The notes under the pieces were generated by a model, which was not told the DNA's origin, searched no databases, and saw only the letters and a list, made by a program, of their open reading frames with translations. Shown here one piece after another: positions 12,498 to 14,022 of a DNA stretch of 64,000 nucleotides; position 1 is the first letter of the stretch, and every line of letters begins with the position of its first letter. The position numbers were made by a program, and so were the translations under genes. Origin of the DNA: Halosimplex halophilum. GTDB lineage: Archaea > Halobacteriota > Halobacteria > Halobacteriales > Haloarculaceae. Location: assembly GCF_004698125.1 (NCBI RefSeq), contig NZ_ML214297.1, positions 1,710,891-1,774,890 of the forward strand, in the 5' to 3' direction.

Positions 12498-13175
12498 GTG
12501 TCGCGCCCCTCCCACGAACGATACCGGCGCCGGATCGAGAGCGTGTCCGCTGTGGCCTCATACCTATCATCTGTGACGGAAATCTTGTTTGTTTGGGTCC
12601 CAAATAACGCTTTGGTTTGCGGGTATTCGTCGCTCGATTCATGTGTTCGAACTTCGAGAGGTCGCGTCGCTACGTGCCTCTCCGGCGATGTAACCGCGCG
12701 TTCCGTGTCATACGGCGAATCCCTCTTAAACGTAGGTGGACCGAAGTGAAAGTAGTTCCGAACCGACGCGAACCGAGTGATAGCGGGCGGATCTGCAGTG
12801 GAAGCGATCGGGGGTTTCGGCTGGAGATCGGGGCGGTCCGTCCCCGATCCCCGTCGACTGCGAGTGCGGATCCATGTGTATAATTGTTCTTATATGACCG
12901 GGCAGACGGCGGCGGCGTGCGCTCCGGTCCGGCGGTTCGGGAACGGGCCGAAAATTTATATAAGAATCATGGTCATTCGAGGGATCGGCGGTCCCGCGGT
13001 CGGTAGCCGAGGGAAGCGACCGCGTGGGACCGAACGGCGGGTGTGACAAGCGGGTGGAACGTACTCGGAAGCGAACCGGCAACCCGGATCGGGGTCCTGA
13101 GGTCGCCCCGTTGTTCCGGGCGCGGACCGTCCGTGAGCCTCCGGCTCGCGAGGAAACCCAGTCCGGAAAAAGTCG
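12498..13175. other. gene-poor interval upstream of nrdJ with two divergent AT-rich TATA islands
   Basis: Together with 13193-13319 this is about 0.8 kb with no convincing gene. It contains the 13-bp palindrome TTTGGGTCCCAAA (12592-12604) in the probable nrdJ promoter zone. It also contains two AT-rich islands, at 12877-12896 and 12951-12967, carrying the inverted 9-mers TTCTTATAT and ATATAAGAA. Short frames here have basic composition unlike halophilic proteins. The rest is GC-rich with small hairpins such as GAGCCTCCGGCTC. The interval may be degraded inserted DNA. Confidence 0.5.
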
Positions 13176-13192
13176 GTAGTGGACTCGCGGGG
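13176..13192 (+). repeat. attachment-site-like 17-bp duplicate of the tRNA-Ala 3' end (distal copy)
   Basis: GTAGTGGACTCGCGGGG is identical to bases 13947-13963, which cover the last 13 nt of the tRNA-Ala gene plus 4 nt beyond it. The flanking bases differ on both sides. The two copies are 771 bp apart in direct orientation and enclose only the hicBA pair. This is the arrangement left by site-specific integration at a tRNA 3' end. Confidence 0.7.
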
Positions 13193-13319
13193 CAGGAGGA
13201 TCGCAATTTGCGGAACGGATCGGTCCCTGAACGTCCTCGGAGCAGTCATCGGACCGAACATTCGGAACGGACCTGGGTCCCCGAACGCTTATTCGGCAGT
13301 GCGCGTTACCGTCACTCAC

Positions 13320-13592
13320 ATGGCTAGTTCCACGCGCGACGGCGATCTCGACCACGAAGACGAGATCCGGATGTGGCGCGAGGGTGACGGCTGGGTCATC
13401 ACCGACGTCGAGACCGGCGTGACTACCCAAGGTGAGACGCGGGAACACGCGCTGGAGATGCTTGACGAGGCCGTCGCACTCCACAAGGGAGAGATCGGCC
13501 GTGAACCGACTGACGAGGAACTCAGGGAACTGGGTATCGACCCGGAAGACAACACCACCGGCAACGAAGAGCCGCCGGAGTTTCTGCAGTAA
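13320..13592 (+). CDS. hicB: HicB-family antitoxin
   Basis: A 90-residue acidic protein. Residues 10-60 fit the HicB partial RNase H-like fold (IRMWREGDGWVITDVETGVTTQGETREHALEMLDEAVAL). The acidic C-terminal tail ends DNTTGNEEPPEFLQ. HicB antitoxins bind and neutralise HicA and usually repress the operon. The gene is first in the pair, the reverse of the common hicA-hicB order, and its TAA stop is followed directly by the hicA ATG. CTTATT at about 13289 could be the TATA box. The pair is enclosed by attachment-site-like repeats. Confidence 0.85.
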   Translation: MASSTRDGDLDHEDEIRMWREGDGWVITDVETGVTTQGETREHALEMLDEAVALHKGEIGREPTDEELRELGIDPEDNTTGNEEPPEFLQ

Positions 13593-13844
13593 ATGGGTCG
13601 GCGGACGTTCTCCGGTATGGAAGTGGCGAAGGTGCTCGTCAACGTGGGCGATTTCGAATGGCGCCGAACGGTCGGCGACCACGCGCAACTCTACTACGAG
13701 CATCCAACCAACGAGGACGACAAACGACAGGTCACGGTCCCACTCCACGACGAACTCAGGATCGGAACGCTTCGGGATGTTGCCAGTGATGCGGGTGCGG
13801 AGGACTTCGATGCGTTCTGCGACTGGATCGACCGCAACGCATAG
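13593..13844 (+). CDS. hicA: HicA-family mRNA interferase toxin
   Basis: An 83-residue protein with the double-stranded RNA-binding-like HicA fold. Visible features are the N-terminal FSGMEVAKVLVNVGDFEWRR, the catalytic His in VGDHAQLYY (family consensus GSH; here Asp replaces Ser), the basic-acidic loop EDDKRQVTVPLH, and the C-terminal helix RIGTLRDVASDAGAEDFDAFCDWI. HicA toxins bind or cleave mRNA in a translation-linked way. Its start abuts the hicB stop with no gap, so translation is probably coupled. The active-site His is intact and the toxin is predicted functional. Confidence 0.85.
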   Translation: MGRRTFSGMEVAKVLVNVGDFEWRRTVGDHAQLYYEHPTNEDDKRQVTVPLHDELRIGTLRDVASDAGAEDFDAFCDWIDRNA

Positions 13845-13946
13845 TTCGTCTGAGCTGCTGATCATCTCGTCACCCCTGTGCGAGAAAGTTCCCGCGAGAA
13901 CCGCAATACCGGCGACTAACCGGATAGTTCGCGGGGAAGAAACGGT

Positions 13947-13963
13947 GTAGTGGACTCGCGGGG
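13947..13963 (+). repeat. attachment-site-like repeat, tRNA-Ala copy
   Basis: This is the second copy of the 17-bp sequence at 13176-13192. It includes the acceptor 3' strand and part of the T-arm of tRNA-Ala, so the tRNA gene stays intact after the presumed integration. No integrase gene lies between the copies. Confidence 0.7.
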
Positions 13964-14022
13964 ATTTGAACCCCGGGCCTCTTCCTTGCGAAGGAAGCGA
14001 TCTGCCACTGATCTACGAGCCC
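13951..14022 (-). tRNA. tRNA-Ala (CGC)
   Basis: On the minus strand the acceptor stem is GGGCTCG/CGAGTCC followed by discriminator A. The third pair is G-T, the alanine identity element G3:U70. The anticodon stem CTTCC/GGAAG encloses TTCGCAA with anticodon CGC. The T-arm is CCGGGG-TTCAAAT-CCCCG-like. There is no intron and no encoded CCA. Its 3' end faces the hicBA cassette. Confidence 0.94.

Follow-up and report, generated by a model that had tools for sequence, protein, structure and literature searches.

At the locus, a two-gene operon lies beside a tRNA-Ala(CGC) gene and is enclosed by two copies of the 17-mer GTAGTGGACTCGCGGGG (Table 1). The hicA product carries the HicA toxin domain of HicAB type II toxin-antitoxin (TA) systems (PF07927, 37.7 bits against a cut-off of 27), and a DUF7387 gene adjoins it in the position of hicB. 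The AlphaFold model of the DUF7387 protein has the order strand-strand-strand-helix (pLDDT 79) and its best match by fold in the PDB was 2yzt, a weak match (E 0.056); NCBIfam returned no match for either product. HicA and HicB would be expected to act as toxin and antitoxin in this unit. The presumed promoter/operator, CCGAACGCTTATTCGG, contains a CTTAT box, and a similar box is found at L146 and L153. An earlier note on this DNA had stated that only hicB and hicA lie between the two 17-mers, which was confirmed by the open reading frames and their Pfam matches.

Table 1 Features of the hicBA unit and its tRNA-Ala(CGC) target (LE, left arm; att, attachment site)
Feature	Position	Strand	Basis
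Native tRNA 3′ flank with T5 tract, pushed away by the cassette	13161..13175	-	Comparison with relatives
Distal att copy	13176..13192		Exact 17-mer
Right-end motif CTCCTG, immediately before the core	13193..13198	-	G004, G001 and order-wide pattern
Presumed own promoter/operator of hicBA, CCGAACGCTTATTCGG	13280..13319	+	Read from the sequence (presumed)
hicB antitoxin gene (DUF7387)	13320..13592	+	Pfam PF24113, E 1e-34; AlphaFold model
hicA toxin gene	13593..13844	+	Pfam PF07927 (HicA_toxin), E 2.2e-9
Left arm (LE), about 80 bp, common to other elements	13870..13950	-	Comparison with G001 and G004; six-arm alignment; arm model matches
Invariant left-arm motif GCGAACTATCC, 18 nt from att	13922..13932	-	Scan of att copies
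tRNA-side att copy (13 nt of tRNA 3′ end plus CTAC)	13947..13963		Exact 17-mer
tRNA-Ala(CGC) gene, integration target	13951..14022	-	ARAGORN

The two copies of the 17-mer are in the same orientation on the + strand, 771 bp apart. The exact recurrence of the tRNA-Ala 3′ end at this distance had been claimed before and holds, these being the only two exact copies in the 4.47-Mb genome (reversed control, 0), and no further copy with up to three mismatches is present in the window, by which we mean the whole stretch of 64,000 nucleotides analysed (0.58 expected at three mismatches). ARAGORN called the tRNA gene at 13950-14022 on the minus strand; by reading, the gene boundary was placed at 13951 rather than 13950, so that 13 of the 17 att bases are the tRNA 3′ end and the other four (CTAC) lie outside the gene. 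The hicBA unit is accordingly flanked on either side by att sites in the form of a 17-bp direct repeat, as in cis-mobilizable (CIME) or other non-autonomous integrative elements.

The ends of the unit were compared with those of other elements at the same tRNA gene. The left arm is 94.9% identical over 79 bp to that of G001 (H. aquaticum) and 86.9% identical over 99 bp to that of G004 (H. pelagicum). The motif GCGAACTATCC, defined beforehand from six aligned left arms, was found with up to two mismatches within 45 nt of 15 of the 160 distinct att copies, and at exactly 18 nt in 13 of these 15; in the 13 copies the spacers between motif and att differ in sequence while the distance of 18 nt is held. 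A model built from the six arms matched 16 of 146 Haloarculaceae genomes at E≤0.01. Seven matches were read, of which five (L204-L208) lie directly after a tRNA-Ala(CGC) gene or an att copy, and the weak matches at L209 and L218 do not. The left arm was also considered as a folded single-stranded DNA site, a candidate rejected on weak and unconvincing z scores (-1.16 and -1.50).

At the right end, 23 bp including the core are identical between the window and G004, and in the G001 element three features stand one after another, namely the integrase end, a right end with this CTCCTG and the core, and a further left arm. Integrase-bearing elements were also found in G081 and G086, which are among the genomes with GCGAACTATCC at exactly 18 nt from the att copy at the tRNA; their integrases (61.6% and 62.7%, respectively) end beside the distal att, 16.6 kb and 11.4 kb away, and in G027 the motif and an integrase are on the same contig, about 25 kb apart. 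Relatives of the integrase of G002 are present in 119 of the 146 family genomes, and at 23 of the 30 loci read the core CCCxGCGAGTCCA occurs within 160 nt after the integrase stop. The strict form YCCTR precedes the core at 1 of the 23 first-list integrase loci having the core, and the right-end pattern is a loose one. A search of 392 genomes of the order with the pattern YCCTRCCCSGCGAGTCCA gave seven places in six genomes (one match for the reversed control): five are beside the integrase clade of this site (61-64%) and two beside hicBA, the latter being the window, which matches by construction, and G103, where hicA is truncated by a stretch similar to the type-2 right end described below. 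Larger elements at this site carrying hicBA together with an integrase had been suggested as a check; the integrase-bearing elements were found, but none of the three large ones examined (G002, G081 and G086) carries hicBA. The hicBA unit itself contains no integrase, and autonomous relatives with the same ends occupy the same target. The lack of an integrase at the locus, as first noted, was borne out, with no match in the window to the integrase clade of the tRNA-Ala(CGC) site at E≤1e-4. Four related integrases elsewhere in the genome are only 37-43% identical, and the tRNA-Ala(CGC) tail is not found beside any of the four.

The S10 gene was used to locate the site in eight Halosimplex genomes, seven of which matched. 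The site is framed by rpsJ, tRNA-Ala(CGC), a variable stretch and then, in Halosimplex, the ribonucleotide reductase gene nrdJ, and the seven loci represent seven different arrangements after the same tRNA. The window allele holds hicBA within 771 bp, and G004 holds a diverged hicBA within 758 bp. G003 is a near-empty allele, in which a second tail follows after 63 bp and is succeeded by the native flank; in G005 the tRNA is followed by a hairpin segment of 130 bp, behind which lie an arm and a decayed hicA; G006 differs again, with a segment of 71 bp and other genes; and the G002 locus is occupied by an element of 16.7 kb whose tyrosine integrase ends next to the distal att. G001 has an arm at the tRNA; its chromosome is rearranged, and at another place in it an integrase split by an insertion sequence (IS) is followed by a further att copy and arm. 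Positions 249198, 602297 and 1386083 of G001 contig C1 mark the IS-split integrase and the rearrangement around the tRNA-Ala element. A 784-kb "element" between two att copies in G001 was dropped because the integrase halves lie far apart, which indicates that the chromosome is rearranged there.

A flank resembling that beyond the distal copy of the window follows the distal copy in G002, G003 and G004, and follows the tRNA directly in L022, a Haloarculaceae metagenome-assembled genome (MAG) with one tail copy running straight into this flank. L022 is an empty-site allele. The earlier note had asked for such an allele among relatives and named its absence as grounds for rejection; both L022 and, within the genus, the 63-bp allele of G003 answer this. 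Vertical descent of hicBA, the other ground named, fared no better. The hicBA DNA of the window and G004 is 58.5% identical, compared with 94.3% for the 600 bp upstream of the tRNA, and in the hicBA tree the two are far apart and not sisters; the two cassettes have both ends in common, yet they are not the product of one vertical insertion. Judged from these comparisons, inheritance of hicBA at the tRNA-Ala(CGC) site is evidently not vertical. In another genus, G010 carries hicBA (HicB 88%) at tRNA-Ala(CGC) with a partial tail copy. The acceptor stem of that tRNA gene (L153:1958-2029) is altered on both strands (GGGCCGG/CCGGTCC), and its distal tail retains the usual CGAGTCC.

Across the class the site is a hot spot. 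Of 80 named haloarchaeal loci, 74 have the tRNA-Ala(CGC) gene downstream of rpsJ. From 86 loci, five without a recognised tRNA and three with less than 500 bp downstream were removed, and in 35 of the remaining 78 the tail recurs within 2.5 kb. Allowing one mismatch at most, the 78 loci together have 47 such copies, compared with an expectation of 0.05 from shuffled tails, and no copy is inverted; an earlier count over the 74 loci, with two mismatches allowed, found 48 downstream, nine upstream, two for the anticodon control and none inverted. Between tail copies, many genera also have short hairpin segments of non-coding DNA, 59-90 bp or 106-205 bp long, for example downstream of tRNA-Ala(CGC) at L043:7235-7318, L082:7214-7297, L063:6559-6689 and L098:1616-1745. 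Single-strand folding was strong in six of the seven tested (z -2.96 to -6.24; the seventh, -2.38), and we offer the reading that these segments are MITE-like units of the site.

At least five genomes from several genera have, at the same tRNA tail, integrase-free cassettes with other TA-like gene pairs and a conserved second type of ends (type 2); the right ends of these cassettes have about 55 bp in common. One pair is shared by three segments, of 1565, 1567 and 1568 bp, found in Halorientalis marina, Halalkalirubrum salinum and a MAG. In this pair the 209-aa protein matches DUF7437 and, weakly, a helix-turn-helix (HTH) domain, and the 182-aa protein has no Pfam match and was judged PIN-like by reading. 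In L051 and L056 there is another pair; the L051 copies match ParE_toxin and, below cut-off, RHH_1. Beyond this pair, L056 has hicA as well. The type-2 right-end pattern occurs at seven places in the 392 genomes, four of them adjacent to the 209/182 pair; of those four, two match the L025 and L091 cassettes exactly and so are probably the same genomes. Type-2 cassette identities were 85.9% for L025-L091, 83.6% for L025-L054 and 82.2% for L054-L091, against 81.8%, 86.0% and 82.7%, respectively, in EF1a/S10 DNA, and as evidence for transfer they are mixed.

The earlier note had left open whether hicBA is the remnant of a lost element or a minimal cassette mobilised in trans. That alternative is supported, and because the ends are shared with integrase-bearing elements and other integrase-free cassettes occupy the same tRNA, the choice tilts to the cassette. 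Since its ends match those of larger integrase-bearing elements, the unit looks like a tiny hitch-hiking cassette, and 13176-13963 is probably a non-autonomous integrative cassette that depends for its movement on tRNA-Ala tyrosine integrases acting in trans. The 771-bp unit would consist of a left arm, hicBA with its own promoter, a right end and the att core, with the tRNA-Ala(CGC) 3′ end as its insertion site; having the DNA ends used by the tyrosine integrases of tRNA-Ala(CGC) elements and no integrase of its own, it would presumably rely for excision and insertion on the integrase of a virus or plasmid, either resident or incoming, and HicBA addiction presumably retains it. We infer both the action of an integrase in trans on the cassette ends and the way in which the cassette would pass between cells. 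No excised circle, attP or second location of the window cassette was seen. Viral contigs gave no match to a joined attP pattern, four right-end matches, none with an integrase or hicBA, and no HicA relative, results which are taken as giving no support.

The main rival is a decayed, frozen remnant, in which a larger hicBA-carrying element lost the rest by deletion and left an immobile unit kept by toxin addiction. The site does gather remnants, as seen in the decayed hicA of G005, the truncated hicA of G103 and the IS-split integrase of G001; the window genome has no matching integrase; and CIMEs are described in PMC5704250, for the ICE and IME families, as elements whose integration and transfer genes are lost and whose attL and attR are kept. 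Against this, the compact layout (hicB to the right end, hicA to the left end and nothing more) is repeated in the window and G004 with strongly diverged hicBA, no integrase-related stretch was detected in the window, and type-2 cassettes with other pairs follow this minimal plan too, their ends being intact and three of the cassettes near-equal in length. As to derivation by loss of integration or transfer genes, there is no hicBA-bearing parent among the three large elements checked. We regard a remnant as rather unlikely. Movement by homologous recombination alone, through the S10/tRNA and nrdJ flanks or tandem att copies and with no site-specific step, is improbable: the conserved rpsJ-tRNA-nrdJ surroundings in Halosimplex would permit flank-mediated exchange, but the breakpoints lie at the att core and arms, and the excess of extra tail copies, none inverted, speaks against it. 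That the 17-mer is a chance or regulatory repeat of the tRNA end and no att site, for which nothing but its shortness (17 bp) speaks, can be dismissed given its two exact copies in 4.47 Mb, the same core bounding integrase-bearing elements at the same tRNA, and the occupied, near-empty and single-copy alleles.

A cassette mobilised in trans resembles several known systems in part. Like CIMEs in the description of PMC5704250, it is an att-bounded segment without integration genes, with tandem accretion at the end of a host gene. It differs in its 771-bp size with a single TA operon, its recurrent compact layout with different cargo and its archaeal tRNA-Ala site, and an origin by decay is only putative. 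The ViPRE loci of Halomicrobium mukohataei and Haloarcula are likewise haloarchaeal and are bounded by a complete tRNA-Ala gene on one side and part of a second copy on the other; as described in the available text of PMC3622292, they span 25-39 kb, are virus- or plasmid-like and carry an integrase, and that description includes no minimal TA unit. A likeness, not a family assignment, exists to SNJ2-type integrases, described in PMC8371274 as tyrosine recombinases of haloarchaea for which tRNA ends serve as sites. Integron gene cassettes and CALINs, as described in PMC9668308 and PMC11389934, are similarly small, integrase-free, beside recombination sites, mobilisable in trans and found in arrays; the words "Halobacteri" and "haloarchaea" are absent from the main text of PMC9668308. 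In contrast to integron cassettes, the hicBA unit has the 3′ end of a tRNA gene as its site, and its left arm and right end are separate. In Tycheposons, which are bacterial and much larger than the hicBA unit, tRNA-end duplications flank the cargo as they do here. Tycheposons are named in PMC11389934. Titles and abstract openings of the open-licence literature yielded no lone TA cassette at a haloarchaeal tRNA, a scope that is no proof that earlier descriptions are absent.

Among 32 hicBA loci tested, eight have a tight flanking direct repeat scoring above 14.5 (95th percentile of the cross-locus null, 12.0; three values at 20.5-22). The sites include tRNA-Ala, a gene 3′ end (L143, L163) and a repeat array (L146, L147). 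At L143 and L163 (G082 and G086), hicBA lies between the intact 3′ end of a gene, an SDR by reading, and a 27-31 bp copy of that end, which is, to all appearances, a second kind of gene-end att. At L148 (G131) a 138-bp direct repeat flanks hicBA, with more long duplications nearby. The array repeat CTACTAGTAGNNNNTCGCCCGGTAGTGTTCCGGGCG occurs, for example, at L166:9594-16065 (G132), L167 and L168, at a spacing of mostly about 0.8-1.8 kb. The pattern is present in 34 of the 146 Haloarculaceae genomes and 9 of 22 genera (control, 0), in no genome on both strands. Six hicA genes lie 54-258 bp from a CTACTAGTAGNNNNTCGCCCGGTAGTGTTCCGGGCG repeat, and the L166 array carries hicBA, a DUF433/DUF5615 pair and, by reading, other TA-like genes. 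No Rfam RNA underlies the first array repeat at the array loci. The whole looks like an integron-like array of TA cassettes.

A wider and more tentative possibility is that the Halobacteria have an integron-like cassette economy without integrons, in which single TA operons between conserved arms and an att core may be captured at the tRNA-Ala(CGC) 3′ end, where two or more end types occur, as well as at the ends of other genes and in a repeat array set apart from these, with viral or plasmid integrases acting in trans and hicBA as a recurrent passenger of all. TA operons are found dispersed over genomes, and the way in which a single one moves is usually unclear; here a vehicle is visible, of about 770-1570 bp with defined arms and one att core. 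With a predictable empty site and candidate integrases having the same ends, movement of a lone TA operon in trans becomes testable, and tRNA-Ala(CGC) is marked as a place to seek archaeal TA cassettes.
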